The notes under the pieces: model-generated | The model's database searches: none | What the model saw: only the letters and a program-made list of their open reading frames with translations | Told to the model about the DNA's origin: nothing | NCBI GenBank assembly: GCA_035527835.1 | Contig: DATKZS010000073.1 | Span: forward strand, 1 to 27,181 | Origin: DATKZS01 sp035527835 [NCBI: bacterium] | GTDB taxonomy: Bacteria > RBG-13-61-14 | DNA length: 27,181 nt | Direction of reading: 5' to 3' | In this document: piece after piece, positions 51 through 26,907 of the stretch | How positions within the stretch are numbered: position 1 is the stretch's first letter | Layout of the letters: every line of letters starts with the position of its first letter | Program-made: the position numbers and the translations under genes

Positions 51-301
51 TGTCCAAAATAGGCCGCAAGAAAACCGCCAAGACGCCAAGAGCGCCAAGG
101 ATCGCCAAGTAAATCATGATGTTTCTTTGCGGCCCGGCAAAGAACAGCTCGGGAGCGTTGGCCCCAACCGGCTTGGCGAACCGGCCGACGGGAGCGCCAA
201 GCAAGAAATATTCGCACCCAAGCCCTTGTAAAATCGTGTTGAAAAATAATCCTTGGCGCTCTTGGCGTCTTGGCGGTTCTCCGGTCCGTTTATTTTGGAC
301 A
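51..301. mobile_element. MITE-like element with long imperfect terminal inverted repeats
   Basis: The left arm (51-101) starts TGTCCAAAATA and the right arm (250-301) ends TATTTTGGACA. About 12 unrelated bases follow in each arm, then roughly 28 bp of perfect inverted repeat made of CGCCAAGA-type units (AACCGCCAAGACGCCAAGAG on the left). The 150-bp centre has no convincing gene. A spurious ORF reading NRQDAKSAKD crosses the right arm; this peptide signature recurs from this kind of CGCCAAG repeat in many bacterial genomes. I see no target-site duplication. The right arm supplies the last codons and stop of the selenoprotein candidate at 290-529. Confidence 0.6.
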
Positions 302-529
302 GCACTGATCTTCTATCTTGTTATCCTGCTCTTCCCGCGCTCGGGGCTTTTCAGGCCCGGCGAGCAGCTCGACCAGGCTGAATCCCATGACGGCGAAGAT
401 CGTGCCCGTGACCCACGGGTTTTTGCTCATGGCTCAGGCGCCGTGGCAGCCGATGAAGTAGCTGTAAAGGAAGCCGAGCCCGAAGCCGGCTACGGCCCCC
501 ATCCATTTCCATCCTTTCCATTTATTCAT
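290..529 (-). CDS. Probable selenoprotein, DUF6132-like small membrane protein, copy B
   Basis: Reading on the minus strand from ATG 529 gives a 79-residue protein if the in-frame TGA at 436-434 (codon 32) is read as selenocysteine. AAGGA at 540-536 lies 6 nt before the ATG. There are two hydrophobic segments (about residues 12-27 and 39-56), and between them GCHGA-U-AMSKNPW. DUF6132 proteins carry a Gly-Cys...Gly-x-Cys-Pro...Asn-Pro motif there, so Sec replaces the second Cys. The neighbouring copy (653-814) has its TGA at the same aligned position. A perfect 6-bp hairpin with loop GGU follows 20 nt after the TGA. The hydrophilic tail ends CCPK and its stop lies inside the MITE-like element, so the C-terminus may have been altered by insertion. 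The role is unknown; a membrane thiol/selenol redox or sulfur-handling function is inference. Confidence 0.7.
405..419 (-). promoter_or_regulatory. Candidate bacterial SECIS hairpin (copy B)
   Basis: On the minus strand CCCGTG (419-414), loop GGT (413-411) and CACGGG (410-405) form a perfect 6-bp stem. The loop starts 20 nt after the TGA at 436-434. This fits the usual bacterial SECIS description: a short stem, a small apical loop with G in its first two positions, and about 16-37 nt from the UGA. The hairpin overlaps codons for NPWVTG. Confidence 0.6.
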
Positions 530-545
530 TGCTGGTCCTTGTTAT

Positions 546-624
546 GGTGGGTGGGACACTCCTGTCCCGCACGCTTCCTAATCATGGTGACGCCGCCCGA
601 CAAGAGTGTCGGGCTCCACCTACC
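546..624 (+). repeat. Cloverleaf-like double-hairpin repeat, copy 1
   Basis: An outer stem (GGTGGGTGG with CCACCTACC, one G.U) encloses two hairpins, GGGACACTCCTGTCCC and CCGACAAGAGTGTCGG. The cores are GACA-CTCC-TGTC and GACA-AGAG-TGTC. The centre carries CATGGTGACGCCGCCCGACA. The same architecture appears at 7610-7683 (inverted, with a closely similar centre) and at 11139-11200. This copy lies between the two selenoprotein candidates. Confidence 0.8.
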
Positions 625-652
625 TTAATGTCCATATTCGTCGCCCCTGTTA

Positions 653-814
653 TTAAATAAAGGACCCGGCCATCAGATATCCGATGGCGGCGAAGATCGC
701 GCCCGTGAACCACGGATTGGCGTAGGCCGGTCAACCGATCTTGCAGCCCACCAGTTTGCTGAAGGCAAAGCCGGCGCCAAAACCCGCGACCAGTCCCATA
801 GCGTGTATCAACAT
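653..814 (-). CDS. Probable selenoprotein, DUF6132-like small membrane protein, copy A
   Basis: From ATG 814 on the minus strand, reading the in-frame TGA at 733-731 as selenocysteine gives 53 residues: MLIHAMGLVAGFGAGF..., then LVGCKIG-U-PAYANPWFTG, then a second hydrophobic segment and a TAA stop at 655-653. The pattern is two membrane spans flanking Gly-Cys-x-x-Gly-Sec-Pro and an Asn-Pro-Trp. That matches DUF6132, where Cys stands in place of Sec. An in-frame ATG at 838 would add eight residues, and neither start has a clean ribosome-binding site. It follows the epimerase by 31-55 nt and is probably co-transcribed with it. Without recoding it breaks into two peptides of about 27 and 25 residues, which explains why gene callers miss it. 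The conserved TGA in two diverged paralogues argues against pseudogenes. Confidence 0.72.
702..716 (-). promoter_or_regulatory. Candidate bacterial SECIS hairpin (copy A)
   Basis: On the minus strand CCGTG (715-711), loop GTT (710-708) and CACGG (707-703) pair, extended by one U.G pair (716/702). The loop begins 20 nt after the TGA at 733-731, the same spacing as in copy B. The loop starts with G, as expected for a bacterial SECIS. Confidence 0.55.
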
Positions 815-7559: not shown

Positions 7560-7716
7560 GAAGAAGTCATTGTTACTAACGGGAGCGATAAATGTTGGAC
7601 CTAAAGATAGGTGGGCCCGACACTCTTGTCGGGCGGCGGCGCCATGGTTGAGAGGCGCGCGGGACAGGAGTGTCCCGCCCACCCTGGCGCCATTGTCGGC
7701 GCGGCGGCGGAATAAG
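7542..7716 (+). repeat. Direct repeat of 19 nt flanking a hairpin repeat
   Basis: GGCGCGGCGGCGGAATAAG occurs at 7542-7560 (end of the GT-C gene including its stop) and again at 7698-7716. In both places it is followed by a similar (A/G)AGAAGT...AACGG stretch. Cloverleaf repeat copy 2 lies between them. A segmental duplication accompanying the repeat's arrival would explain the layout. Confidence 0.65.
7610..7683 (-). repeat. Cloverleaf-like double-hairpin repeat, copy 2 (inverted)
   Basis: The outer stem is GGTGGGC with GCCCACC. The hairpins are CCCGACACTCTTGTCGGG and GGGACAGGAGTGTCCC. Read on the minus strand it aligns with copy 1 (546-624), including a centre with CCATGGCGCCGCCGCCCGAC. It sits in the gap between the GT-C and GT2 genes of the glycan operon. 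Confidence 0.8.
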
Positions 7717-11138: not shown

Positions 11139-11200
11139 GGTGGCCGCGACACTCCTGTCGCGGTCCGCGAAAAGACGGGGACAAGAGTGTCCCCGCCACC
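11139..11200 (+). repeat. Cloverleaf-like double-hairpin repeat, copy 3
   Basis: The outer stem is GGTGGC with GCCACC, the hairpins are CGCGACACTCCTGTCGCG and GGGGACAAGAGTGTCCCC. Stems differ from copies 1 and 2 but pair perfectly, and the GACA-CTCC-TGTC and GACA-AGAG-TGTC cores are kept. This is compensatory variation. The centre is shorter and unrelated to that of copies 1 and 2. It lies in the 367-nt gap after the glycan operon. Confidence 0.8.
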
Positions 11201-15558: not shown

Positions 15559-16742
15559 CTATATTGACGGATACAATCTTCTTGGTTTTATCCTGGCGTC
15601 CTCGGTCGTGAAACGCCGGCGGATGGGCTTAGGATGAAGCGCTTGATCCTCCAGCCAGGCCTCAACTTCACGTTTGAGGGTTTCAATGTCCGGAATCCTT
15701 CGATCCAGACATTGTTTGGAAAGGACGCTCAACTCGATTTCCGCCATGTCCAGCCAACTGCCGTGCTTGGGAGTATGGTGAATCTCCAGCTTGTCGGCGA
15801 TCCGTTTGGCCTCCGGCGGCTCAAACGCCTCATCAAGAGAAGATTTCGAATGCGTATTGAGGTTATCCATCACCACCACAATCCTCTCCACCGCCGGATA
15901 AATGTCATCCGCCACGATCTTCAGCGGATGGGCAAAATCCGTTTGGGTGCGGCGTTCCGTGACCTGAAGCGATTTGCGCCCGGTGAGCGGCTCCACCACC
16001 ATGAACAGATTGGCCACGCCGTTACGCCGGTACTCATGATCGTAAAGAGCGGGTTGTCCGGGCCGGGGCGGAAGCGGGATGCGAACCTCCCCGATCAACT
16101 GCTTGCTCGTTTCATCAATGCACACCTGGGGGCGCAACGGATCATAGGGCCGCTGGTAAACATCAAGCACGTCTTCCATCGCGCAGACAAACTCCGCGCC
16201 GGGCTGGCCCGGAAAACACCATTGCTTTTTCAACCAGGGCTTAAGCCGGTTTTTTTTAACGTCCGCCGCACGGTCTCGTCGGAGACGCTCTCCACCAATT
16301 CCATCTCCGCCAATTGGTCGGCGAGAAGCTGCATGGTCCAGCCCCGCCGGCCGCTCGGAGGGTCCCCGCAAGCCATGGCGATGAGACGTGCTTCCACCTC
16401 CCCATGGATTTTGGGCGGAGGGAACACCTCCCGCTTTTTCCGGTTCAGCGCCGACTCTAATCCCTCCTCCACAAACCTTCGCCGGACCCGCTCCACCGTG
16501 CAACGGCCAACATTCAACGCGGTGACGATCTGGTCGTCCTTCAGTCCCGGACCGTGGGGACCGGAATCGCCGGCGAGGAGAATCTGGGCATGAAGCCGGC
16601 GGGGAGCGGAAGCCTTTCCTTTGGAGACAATCTCCTGGAGATAGGAGCGTTCTTCCGCGCCGAGCGTAACCGCATAAATCTTCTTGTGAGCTCGCTCCTT
16701 TTGGAAAAAATTGGTATGTTTTTGATATGGACAGAATAACAT
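15559..16742 (-). CDS. IS630-type transposase, two frames joined by probable -1 frameshift
   Basis: The first frame (down to TGA 16232-16230) encodes the helix-turn-helix part: LTLGAEERSYLQEIV-like N-terminus, KDDQIVTALNVGRCTVERVR, and TVRRTLKKTGLSPG at its end. The second frame (to TAG 15561-15559) has VKKNRLKPWLKKQWCFPG and the DDE catalytic domain: Asp in QVCIDETSKQ, Asp in VVVMDNLNTHSK, Glu in WLDMAEIELSVL. Both meet at A8 (16257-16250 on the minus strand), where slipping back one base on A-AAA-AAA joins LKK to NRLKPW. The element therefore looks intact. The start is uncertain: ATG 16742 and 16754 lie at or beyond the apparent element end, although AAGGAG occurs inside. Confidence 0.8.
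15560..16738 (-). mobile_element. IS630-family insertion sequence
   Basis: The boundaries are inferred from TA dinucleotides outside both ends (about 15560-15563 and 16737-16738); IS630 elements insert at TA. Inner ends both start TATT on their own strands, but the inverted repeats beyond that are weak (TTGACGGATACAA against TTCTGTCCATATCAA). The left end falls about 50 nt upstream of the electron-transfer operon's start codon and the right end abuts a truncated integrase. Confidence 0.65.
16250..16257 (-). other. A8 slippery site for -1 frameshifting
   Basis: Eight A residues on the minus strand (TTAAAAAAAACCGG) sit exactly where the helix-turn-helix frame must change to the DDE frame. The zero frame reads TTA AAA AAA ACC GGC and the -1 frame AAA AAA AAC CGG. 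Confidence 0.7.
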
Positions 16743-17376
16743 GGCTGCTCGCATTTATCAATTTAACTGTGGTAGTGCACTAGCGGCCCAGCTCGCGGAA
16801 TCAGCGCAAGGTAAGGCTGAAACCGACCCCCTTGTTGACACCTGTGAGCGGGACTTTTCGCGGCTGATGGACATAGACCTTAAGGCCGCAAAAATTCCGA
16901 AGCGAGGGCCAGGCGGAGTGGTGTGCTTCCATTCACTGCGACACAGCTTTATCAACATCCTCTTGGAACAGGGGGCAGGCGCGAAAGAGGTCCAGGACTT
17001 GGCGCGGCACCAGACGTTGAGCATGACCATGAACCACTACGCCAAGTCCAGCATTAAGAGACGGCGGGAGCTGGCTGAGGGCTTGGGTGAAACCATCAAG
17101 ATGGGGCTGAATCCCATAACCGGCCCGGAACGGAAGGTGGTGGGTCTTGAAACCCACGATTATCCCGAAGGAATTTTGGCTCCCCGGAAGCAACTCTATT
17201 TATTAGCCGACATTCTGCCGCTAAAATTAAAAAATGTAGGCAGCGAAATGAGTTACATGAGGCCGCCTGTTAACAATGTGAGAGAAATTCCGTTAACTCG
17301 GATTGCACTACTCCGCCTTTTTTACCATCAGAAGCAGCCCCCAAAATGGCCTCGCATGAGGCCAAACCTCAACTGA
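16741..17376 (+). pseudogene. Tyrosine recombinase/integrase, C-terminal remnant
   Basis: The open frame starts at the edge of the IS630 element. It contains the end of a tyrosine recombinase catalytic domain: HSLRH (residues 64-68, HxxR box), ARHQTLSMTMNHYA with His90 and nucleophile Tyr100, then SIKRRRELAEGLGE. The N-terminal core-binding domain and first catalytic Arg are missing, so the gene was cut by the insertion or by an associated deletion. The frame stays open for 100 residues after the domain (to 17376) without recognisable features. Similar recombinases catalyse integration of genomic islands, and this one probably belonged to the accessory DNA on its right. No matching 5' half is seen left of the insertion. 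Confidence 0.75.
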
Positions 17377-24277: not shown

Positions 24278-24306
24278 TTGATACATTTATCCCGCCTTGC
24301 TATGAT
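24278..24306 (+). promoter_or_regulatory. Sigma70-type promoter of the type I restriction locus
   Basis: TTGATA (24278-24283), a 17-nt spacer and TATGAT (24301-24306) match the consensus at 5/6 in each box. The leader to the hsdM ATG is about 60 nt. Confidence 0.65.
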
Positions 24307-24374
24307 TGCTCCCGCATGACCCACGAGAGGCGCGGACCAGCGCCGGGAAATTTTCGGCAAAAGGGAGACACCAC

Positions 24375-25949
24375 ATGGCCAGGGGCAACAGTAACGGGGC
24401 CAATCTGGGCTTTGAGAAGGAGCTGTGGCAGCTCGCCGACGCGCTCCGCTCCAACATGGACGCCGCCGAGTACAAGCACGTCGTGCTCGGCCTGATCTTC
24501 CTGAAGTACATCTCCGACGCCTTCGAGGAGCAGCACGCCAGGCTCGAAGCCGCGGTGAAGCAGGGCGCCGACCCCGAGGACCCCGACGAGTACCGCGCCG
24601 TCAACATCTTCTGGGTCCCCAAGGACGCCCGCTGGTCGCTCCTCCAAGCCGGCGCCAAGCAGCCCACCATCGGCAAGGTCGTGGACGACGCCATGCTCGC
24701 CATCGAGCGCGACAACCCATCCCTCAAGGGCGTCCTGCCCAAGGAATACGCTCACCCGCGCCTGGACAAGCAGCGCCTGGGCCAGCTCATTGACCTGATC
24801 GGCAACATCGGCCTGGGCGACGAGGCCAATCGCTCCCGCGACATCCTGGGCCGGGTCTACGAATATTTCCTTTCGCAGTTTGCCAGCGCCGAGGGCAAGA
24901 AGGGCGGACAGTTCTACACGCCCCGCTGCGTGGTCCGGGTGCTGGTCGAGATGCTCGCGCCCTACACGGGCCGGGTCTACGACCCCTGCTGCGGCTCCGG
25001 CGGCATGTTCGTTCAGTCAGTCGAGTTCGTCAAGGCCCACGCTACGGGCAACGGCAACGGGGGCAAGGCCAGGGGCGATGTCAGCGTCTTCGGCCAGGAG
25101 TCCAACCACACCACCTGGCGGCTGGCCAAGATGAACCTCGCCATCCGCCAGATCGAAAACAACCTCGGCAAGGAGCACGCCGACAGCTTCCACCGCGACC
25201 TCCACCCGGACCTCAAGAGCGACTACGTCCTCGCCAACCCGCCCTTCAACGATTCCGACTGGCGCGGCGACCTCCTGAAGGAAGACAAACGCTGGAAATA
25301 CGGCACGCCCCCGGCAAGCAACGCCAACTTCGCCTGGGTCCAGCACTTCATCCACCACCTCGCGCCCACCGGACAGGCCGGCTTTGTCCTGGCCAACGGC
25401 TCCATGTCCTCGAACCAGTCCGGCGAGGGCGAAATCCGCAAGAACATCATCGAGGCCGACCTGGTGGACTGCATGATCGCCATGCCCGGTCAGCTCTTCT
25501 ACTCGACCCAGATCCCCGTCTGCCTCTGGTTCATCTCCCGCGATAAGAAAAATCATCGCTTCCGCGATAGGCGCGGCAACGTCCTGTTCATAGACGCCCG
25601 GAAGCTCGGGACCTTGATTGACCGCGTCCACCGCGAGCTCACCGACGACGACATCAAGAACATCGCCGACACCTACCACGCCTGGCGCGGGGATAATAGG
25701 GACAGCAAAAAGAAATACCAGGACGTGCCCGGCTTCTGCAAGTCCGCCACGCTCGCCGACATCCGCGGGCACGGCCATGTCCTCACCCCCGGCCGCTATG
25801 TCGGCGCGGCCGAGGTCGAGGACGACGGCGAGCCGTTCGAGGACAAGATGGCCCGCCTCACCGCCGAGCTGCGCGAGCAAATGGAAGAGTCCGCCAAGCT
25901 CGACAAGATCATCTGGGCCAACCTGAAGGACATCGGCTATGGCGGGTAA
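24375..25949 (+). CDS. hsdM: Type I restriction-modification system methyltransferase subunit
   Basis: 524 residues from ATG 24375 (GGGAG about 8 nt upstream); an in-frame ATG at 24306 overlaps the promoter and is rejected. The N-terminal HsdM domain begins [20 protein letters not shown] and contains [18 protein letters not shown]. The N6-adenine methylase core has [18 protein letters not shown], the SAM-binding [10 protein letters not shown] (203-212) and the catalytic NPPF (288-291). Length and motifs are those of an intact family member. It modifies DNA together with HsdS. Its last 20 codons (25890-25949) recur in diverged form at 26307-26366. No hsdR is in the window, and the only hsdS is interrupted. 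Confidence 0.93.
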
Positions 25950-26277
25950 AAAACCGAAAATGCCGGGCCGGGAATCGCGCCGGACCCTGGGCCGGGGCCG
26001 TGCGGGGGTATCCTTCACCGCAGCCTGGCCGGACCGGGGAATTGTGCAAGGGGTCATTGCACAATTACCCTGTAGGCAGATCATCCCCCCGTTTGAGCGT
26101 CTGCACGGCCCAGATACCCCTCCCTGGTACGCCGGGCCAGCCCTCCGTAATGGATGCTACCTGCCCCAAAACCTCAAAGGCCAACTCCCCACCGTCGAAC
26201 AGATCGAGGCGGAACTGGCCCCGCCGCCGAAAGCTCAGGGCAAGAAGCGGAAGCCGGGGAAAAAGGGGACGGGGTGA
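25939..26277 (+). CDS. Small ORF with a DUF1016-like C-terminal remnant
   Basis: 112 residues starting inside the end of hsdM (11-nt overlap). Residues 1-70 are Pro/Arg/Gly-rich and unlike a folded protein; they include a 10-bp hairpin at DNA level. From residue 74 [20 protein letters not shown] is like the tail of DUF1016 (YhcG-type PD-(D/E)xK) proteins, which are common next to type I restriction genes. It then ends in a Lys-rich tail. I read it as a deletion relic of such a gene fused to junk sequence. Its TGA overlaps the next ATG (TGATG). Confidence 0.35.
26040..26066. repeat. Perfect 10-bp hairpin
   Basis: AATTGTGCAA (26040-26049), loop GGGGTCA, TTGCACAATT (26057-26066). It lies in the filler sequence behind hsdM and may mark an inserted small element or recombination relic. 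Confidence 0.6.
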
Positions 26278-26366
26278 TGACGGAGAGGTGGAGAACAATG
26301 GCGCAGTCGGTCAGGCTCGACAAGCTCATCTGGACCAACATGAAGGAGATCGGTTATGGCAAATGA
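26277..26366 (+). pseudogene. 3' fragment of a second hsdM
   Basis: A 29-codon frame reads ...SVRLDKLIWTNMKEIGYGK. Its last 19 residues match the HsdM end [19 protein letters not shown]. At DNA level 26307-26366 and 25890-25949 agree at about 48 of 60 positions by my count. In both places the following gene starts with ATGGC inside the final Tyr-Gly codons. It is therefore the tail of a diverged hsdM copy and not a recent tandem duplicate. Confidence 0.7.
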
Positions 26367-26907
26367 AGGATGGGCATTATTGGCAGCACTTGGCTTGGGA
26401 TATTTGGTTGGTAAACCACCTAATCCCCAGGCTCCTCAAATGGCCAGACCTCGACCTTTGACACCGGCGGAAATCCAAGGATTGTCTAAGTACCATTCGG
26501 GTTGGTCTCCCTTCACGGAAAAATTTATAAAACGTAGGAAAAAACTGGATGAGTTCGAATTGGTAGAGACCGTAAATGCTCTGCCGGAGGACATCAAAGC
26601 CGCCTATAAAGATGCTCTCAACTGCTATCTATTCGGACAGAATCTGGCTTCGACTAACATGGTTTGTCTGACGATAGAACAAATAATCCGTGTTGCCGCA
26701 GGAAGCGATGAGGGTAAACTTTTTGAAGTGATAGATACGGTCTGTAAAGAAAAAAATCTTTCTCCACACATACAGAGGGACTTGCACCTTCTACGCCAAA
26801 TCCGAAATATTCATAGCCATTATGTTGAGCCACTGGGCGAACTCGATCTTCTAAAATTATTCAAGACGGTAGGCGACCTAGTCAAGGAGTTAAAAATTGG
26901 CGCGTGA
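26356..26907 (+). CDS. DUF4145/HEPN-like protein of the restriction locus
   Basis: 183 residues starting within the hsdM-tail fragment. A hydrophobic N-terminus (ALLAALGLGYLVG, residues 7-19) may be a membrane anchor. Residues 75-175 (KDALNCYLFGQNLASTNMVC, IEQIIRVAAG, LHLLRQIRNIHSHY) resemble the DUF4145 pattern, with a late R-N-x-x-x-H helix as in HEPN-like domains. Such proteins often accompany type I restriction operons; their role is not settled. Its codon use is AT-richer than hsdM, so it came with the second hsdM lineage or separately. It overlaps hsdS by 11 nt. Confidence 0.6.
   Translation: MANEGWALLAALGLGYLVGKPPNPQAPQMARPRPLTPAEIQGLSKYHSGWSPFTEKFIKRRKKLDEFELVETVNALPEDIKAAYKDALNCYLFGQNLASTNMVCLTIEQIIRVAAGSDEGKLFEVIDTVCKEKNLSPHIQRDLHLLRQIRNIHSHYVEPLGELDLLKLFKTVGDLVKELKIGA

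Follow-up and report, generated by a model that had tools for sequence, protein, structure and literature searches.

A tandem pair of probable selenoprotein genes related to DUF6132 in a bacterial contig

Two small genes with an in-frame TGA

The window, a stretch of 27,181 nucleotides of contig DATKZS010000073.1, carries two small genes in tandem on its minus strand, here called P1 and P2. P1 (814-653) encodes a two-helix membrane protein of 53 residues, with coding sequence at 814-656 and a stop codon TAA at 655-653 that is followed directly by another TAA. P2 (529-290) is its paralogue of 79 residues, with coding sequence at 529-293 and a stop codon TAA at 292-290. Each is interrupted by one in-frame TGA, located at 733-731 in P1 (motif GCKIGUPAYANPWFTG, where U marks the TGA) and at 436-434 in P2 (motif GCHGAUAMSKNPWVTG). 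A sequence-only reading had described two diverged homologous small membrane proteins with one TGA each at the same aligned place, between GC and NPW, and the read-through frames and their alignment bear this out: the proteins are 49-52% identical, both TGAs fall in the same column, and both share a Gly-rich hydrophobic stretch, the motif GC-x3-U-x4-NPW-x-TG and a second hydrophobic stretch. The window contains two occurrences of the DNA pattern GC-x3-TGA-x4-NPW, where 100 shuffles gave a mean of 0.00. Neither gene is in the list of open reading frames of at least 60 amino acids, and TGA terminates 6 of the 15 long genes of the window.

Several features of the surrounding DNA were recorded. 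The DNA around the hairpins described below (382-421 and 679-718) is 88% identical between P2 and P1, above the expectation from about 50% protein identity. A palindromic element occupies 51-301; its arms (70-102 and 249-281) are 97% complementary and its tips (51-61 and 291-301) are exact 11-bp inverted repeats. The final codons of P2 (Cys-Pro-Lys-stop) sit inside the end of this element, and the P2 C-terminus may derive from an insertion. A 111-nt dispersed repeat lies between P1 and P2 (546-656) and again, in opposite orientation and 77% complementary, 7 kb away at 7573-7683, with an additional short copy at 11139-11162. Judged by eye from the open reading frames, translations of 15559-17376 and 24306-26907 resemble a degenerate transposase and integrase remnant and, farther along, a restriction-modification methylase. 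The two nearest genes upstream of the pair encode an epimerase and then a TPR-cyclic-nucleotide-binding protein. Among 20 genomes searched, the best full-length match of the latter (39%) was in Deltaproteobacteria bacterium RIFOXYA12_FULL_58_15, a genome that also holds a TGA-bearing homologue (L030, below), so that, on protein similarity, the window organism is probably related, though distantly, to that lineage.

Relatives with TGA or cysteine at the aligned site

A scan of genome contigs with a TGA-specific DNA pattern returned 26 matches, two of which are clear homologues with TGA in place: L007, from an uncultured proteobacterium, and L030. The other 24, when read through, gave no related protein and were discarded. 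Profile searches were then made of 869 genomes in three phylum-level sets: 195 genomes from the phylum of the L030 genome, a sample of 329 from that of the L007 genome, and a sample of 345 from that of a third genome. The profile matched 25, 43 and 2 genomes of these sets, and TGA homologues were present in 3, 6 and 2, counts that include L007 and L030. After inspection of the translations, the relatives outside the window comprised 12 distinct loci in which the site is TGA, spread over 11 genomes, and 70 in which it is Cys, besides one spurious match; many further internal stops flagged by the profile search were terminal stops. The claim that the TGA stands where relatives have Cys was thereby upheld, and the search for homologues with Cys or Sec at that position, which the same reading had proposed, yielded both kinds. 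Since relatives carry TGA at the same place, the observation in P1 and P2 is more than chance. A tblastn search of plasmids with P2 gave no match; in viral contigs, the TGA pattern gave 5 matches, none in an open homologous frame, and a search with the two-protein alignment gave 33 pattern matches, none confirmed.

One alternative is that each TGA is an ordinary stop or a nonsense mutation, which would make P1 and P2 short peptides or pseudogenes. TGA is indeed a normal stop elsewhere in the window, as counted above, and the single hairpins are unexceptional against shuffles. Against this, 14 genes from widely separated genomes have this codon at the aligned position, never TAA or TAG among the homologues inspected, and similarity continues after it: identity runs on past the TGA over 18 of 24 residues between L123 and L125 and over 16 of 24 between L122 and L125. 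With the preservation of the hairpin at synonymous sites, reported below, these observations make the ordinary-stop explanation very improbable.

The Sec forms have three residues between Cys and Sec, and most Cys forms have four between both Cys (GCRTGTCPITSNPW). One Cys form, L096, has the Sec-type spacing of three residues and is placed next to Sec forms in a weak tree. That tree was built from 83 rows (L116 was dropped) and 67 columns, and its forks are mostly weak; the Sec forms make up two groups (SH-aLRT 85 and 91), and one Cys row sits inside the second. Genome G281 holds two Sec paralogues from different branches (L109 and L123), and genome G494 holds both a Sec form (L122) and the Cys-x3-Cys form L096. 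The Sec homologue L133 (1561-1608, GSGUALSCNPWVTG) keeps the hairpin and lacks the first Cys, though a Cys follows Sec at a distance of 5 residues; in its genome selA was not found and tRNA-Sec was found.

Kinship with DUF6132

The profile of the Sec forms (12 sequences) was aligned with that of the Cys forms (27 sequences) using hhalign, which gave a probability of 99.5 and an E-value of 1.2e-22. The Pfam model of DUF6132 (PF19628) matched 24 of the 27 tested Cys forms at E<=0.01 and, weakly, 3 of the 12 tested Sec forms (best E 0.02). P1 and P2 themselves gave no DUF6132 match up to E 10 and did not reach the gathering cut-off; their best Pfam match was DUF5957 (E 0.026-0.055), below its own cut-off. 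In NCBIfam release 20.0, the 12 Sec forms matched only unrelated models, and those weakly (E 0.05 or worse), and the matches of P1 and P2 were all sub-threshold. The description of the pair as DUF6132-like therefore stands at the level of the family, through the profile-profile match and the Cys forms, but not at that of the Pfam model, which misses P1 and P2. The Sec forms resemble PF19628 in size, two-helix shape, G-rich first helix and the loop GC...C..[ITSA].NP[WY]; they differ in that Sec replaces the second Cys and that three rather than four residues separate the pair. These comparisons of sequence support the placement of P1 and P2 in the DUF6132 superfamily, within a branch that contains Sec.

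A hairpin within the conserved motif

A SECIS-type hairpin follows each TGA. In P1 (716-702, minus strand) it reads UCCGUG-GUU-CACGGG, with 6 bp, a 3-nt loop GUU at 710-708 and -5.6 kcal/mol; in P2 (419-405, minus strand) it reads CCCGUG-GGU-CACGGG, with 6 bp, a 3-nt loop GGU at 413-411 and -7.9 kcal/mol. In both genes 20 nt separate the UGA from the loop and the loop starts with G, as had been claimed. The same reading cautioned that the hairpin overlaps codons of a conserved motif and that its conservation alone is no independent proof. Window sequence by itself says little for the hairpin: 44-nt stretches folded singly were no stabler than dinucleotide shuffles (z 0.07 for P1 and 0.13 for P2), and 66-nt stretches gave z 0.88 and -0.14.

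The bSECIS rules, as set out in a 2026 inventory (PMC13188914), are a loop of 3-9 nt, a stem of 4-16 bp, G in loop position 1 or 2, a spacing of 16-37 nt and an MFE of at most -7.5 kcal/mol. P2 satisfies all of them and P1 all but the energy (-5.6 vs -7.5). Across the 14 Sec genes, 9 passed at a spacing of 19-20 and 1 at 31, while 4 fell short of -7.5; 9 of the 70 Cys relatives passed, 1 of them at a spacing of 20.

Covariation was assessed in an alignment of the nine Sec genes (of 14) of the NPW type, which is gapless from the TGA on; L134, L114, L122, L123 and L125, which differ in their motif, were excluded. RNAalifold, unprompted, returned one stem of seven pairs joining columns 17-23 with 27-33. 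The outer pair (17/33) is A-U, G-C or C-G in seven genes and an A/C mismatch in P1 and P2, and its 3' base is the synonymous third position of a Gly codon. Pair 21/29 is G-C, A-U or G-U: in L037 and L081, Thr ACG has become Met ATG together with Pro CCG to CCA, so that the pair is kept as A-U, and L109 has G-U. Over the nine genes, 95.2% of cells are paired, compared with 89.2% in shuffles and 22-57% in slid structures. The covariation score was 0.294 against a shuffled mean of 0.165, and of 500 shuffles 1 was as high; of the five covariation measures, two lay within the shuffle range (both-side changes, 207/500; further pair types, 150/500).

A codon-aware null was constructed by drawing synonymous codons according to the usage of each locus (2000 draws). 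The summed MFE of the nine genes was -92.4, against -54.0 under synonymous recoding (sd 6.7; best draw -78.6), and none of the 2000 draws reached it; the genes form 60 pairs, compared with a mean of 42.9 and a maximum of 51 in recoded sequences. Taken individually, P1 (p 0.19) and P2 (p 0.05) were not significant. The same test found no significant folding excess (z -1.15) in 33 Cys relatives with [NSD]P[WYF], a subset for which the motif was accepted anywhere in the protein and which L057 and L058 entered through SPW elsewhere. All 70 Cys relatives together gave z -3.3, or about 0.8 kcal/mol per gene compared with 4.4 in Sec genes. The nine genes are related, and the hairpin tests are therefore not fully independent. 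Among the genes left out, L134 (motif NPWSGM) has another stem at the same place with its loop at 19 nt (-6.4), and in L114 the stem is longer and the loop lies at 20 nt; no hairpin at 19-20 nt was found in L122, L123 or L125. Covariation and the codon-aware control support the predicted hairpin for the NPW-type group.

Selenocysteine machinery in the genomes of relatives

Of the 11 genomes with a Sec relative, 10 (all but G633) had selA over the cut-off and 9 (all but G001 and G230) had tRNA-Sec, and one or both were found in all 11; selB was over the cut-off in all four of these genomes tested. ARAGORN identified one of the tRNAs as tRNA-Sec with anticodon TCA. Eight control genomes with Cys forms only gave selA in 6, selB in 4 and tRNA-Sec in 4. 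Within the phylum set of L007, selA was found in 206 of 329 genomes, and a count made by eye and by hand gave selA in 6/6 Sec genomes vs 20/36 Cys-only genomes (p ~0.04). As selA is common in these groups, its presence gives weak statistical support, and the machinery in relatives agrees with Sec insertion and is no proof of it.

Readthrough could also occur without selenocysteine, through a UGA-suppressor tRNA, a code in which TGA means Trp or Gly, or leaky readthrough, and in one genome a lone read-through codon would look identical. Genome-wide recoding of TGA was rejected, since the codon ends 6 of the 15 long window genes and the code is thus not changed throughout. Furthermore, relatives carry Cys at the place and not Trp or Gly, the hairpin fits the bacterial rules (PMC13188914) in most NPW-type genes, and selA and/or tRNA-Sec accompany the Sec forms in all 11 genomes of relatives. 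Readthrough of this kind is likewise very improbable. P1 and P2 are, on the comparative evidence, very probably a tandem pair of selenoprotein genes in which UGA is read as selenocysteine; this reading rests on the replacement of Cys by TGA, on coding sequence at both sides of the TGA, on the covarying hairpin and on the Sec machinery in the relatives' genomes. UGA would be decoded as Sec and translation would proceed to the TAA. Insertion would be directed by a short hairpin of 5-9 bp that lies 20 nt downstream, has G as the first base of its small loop and overlaps codons of the conserved NPW-x-T-G motif.

Gene neighbourhood and possible function

The flanks of 82 loci (70 Cys and 12 Sec) were searched with neighbour proteins. 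A thioredoxin gene lies on the same strand in 19 of the 82 loci and on the opposite strand only in 2; in 14 loci the same-strand gene is within about 300 nt, 5 of these being confirmed by Pfam. Pfam-confirmed thioredoxin neighbours belong to L007, L098, L099, L111, L121 and L097. DsbD-like proteins are encoded on the same strand in 5 of the 82 loci, and neighbours with DsbD_TM and a thioredoxin domain were confirmed by Pfam at L121, L094, L106 and L097, the DsbD-like neighbour of L118 being outside the confirmed set. L121 and L097 share the gene order thioredoxin, DUF6132, DsbD_TM/thioredoxin on one strand. L007 is the only Sec locus adjoining thioredoxin, the rest of the link coming from Cys relatives, and several of the loci flanked by thioredoxin or DsbD are close relatives of each other; for these reasons a relay role is drawn from the wider family.

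Structure prediction for four sequences gave a mean pLDDT of 61, with helices at 3-25 and 38-56 and with Cys and Sec within or close to the segment that joins them, which agrees with two helices and no more. The protein would have two membrane helices, the first of them short, linked by a loop with Cys-x3-Sec, and this arrangement of a membrane hairpin with the Cys-Sec pair at its turn suggests a reversible selenenylsulfide. We infer that Cys and Sec could form such a bond and relay reducing equivalents between thioredoxin and a partner, which may be a DsbD/CcdA-type transporter. The DsbD/CcdA membrane thiol relay (Pfam DsbD_TM) is found beside Cys relatives, and the mode proposed here is likewise that of a membrane Cys pair cooperating with thioredoxin; the relay is, however, a neighbour and not a homologue, the DUF6132 forms being far smaller and no relation having been found.

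The selenoproteins might instead serve outside a thiol redox relay, in carriage of selenium or sulfur, in metal binding by the Cys/Sec pair, or as a structural membrane peptide beside redox proteins. Thioredoxin is next door in only 14 of the 82 loci, L030 has an OsmC-like gene upstream instead, and L133 lacks the first Cys of the pair, all of which favour a role of this kind. The one-strand gene order of L121 and L097 and the strand bias of thioredoxin speak for the relay, as does the statement in PMC13188914 that the great majority of known selenoproteins with a Cys/Sec pair are held to be redox proteins. A role outside a relay thus deserves serious weight, though we lean away from it.

Relation to known selenoproteins and significance

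The text of the 2026 inventory (PMC13188914) counts 119 prokaryotic selenoprotein families and subfamilies, and in the sections compared its Table 1 contains neither DUF6132 nor a CxxxU motif. The portions of PMC12013277 and PMC9312934 used here name no selenoprotein family of the DUF6132 type. In the open-access journal literature, nothing linking DUF6132 with a selenoprotein was found; DUF6132 by itself led to work on plant nucleotide sugar transporters, irrelevant by title. P1, P2 and their relatives thus appear to be a selenoprotein family not yet described. In common with the bSECIS selenoproteins entered in that table, they have an in-frame UGA, in most members a downstream hairpin whose small loop begins with G at 16-37 nt, Cys homologues and selA, selB and tRNA-Sec in hosts of relatives; unlike the inventory's energy rule, some members have hairpins weaker than -7.5 kcal/mol. 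YeeE/YedE thiosulfate transporter and MerT-type selenoproteins in the same table are likewise membrane proteins with Sec, but they belong to other families with other motifs (GUxSG; C/SxxU), and the Pfam scan of P1 and P2 gave no relation to them.

Stated in full, the proposal is of a new selenoprotein family in at least three phylum-level groups, consisting of membrane hairpins of about 55-80 residues that would use a Cys-x3-Sec pair in a relay between thioredoxin and a membrane transporter and would carry their SECIS within an invariant motif; in this complete form we consider it evenly poised between right and wrong. If true, gene catalogues miss these genes, because the TGA splits each into pieces too short to call, and the prokaryotic selenoproteome would gain very small membrane proteins as a family. 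With the SECIS folded into the codons of the motif, RNA and protein would constrain each other, as in the change of Thr to Met with that of CCG to CCA; an element that overlaps an invariant motif of the protein, and in which compensation also replaces an amino acid, would exemplify dual coding cleanly. The uncharacterised DUF6132 family would then gain its first functional lead, its reactive site being likely the position at which Sec appears.
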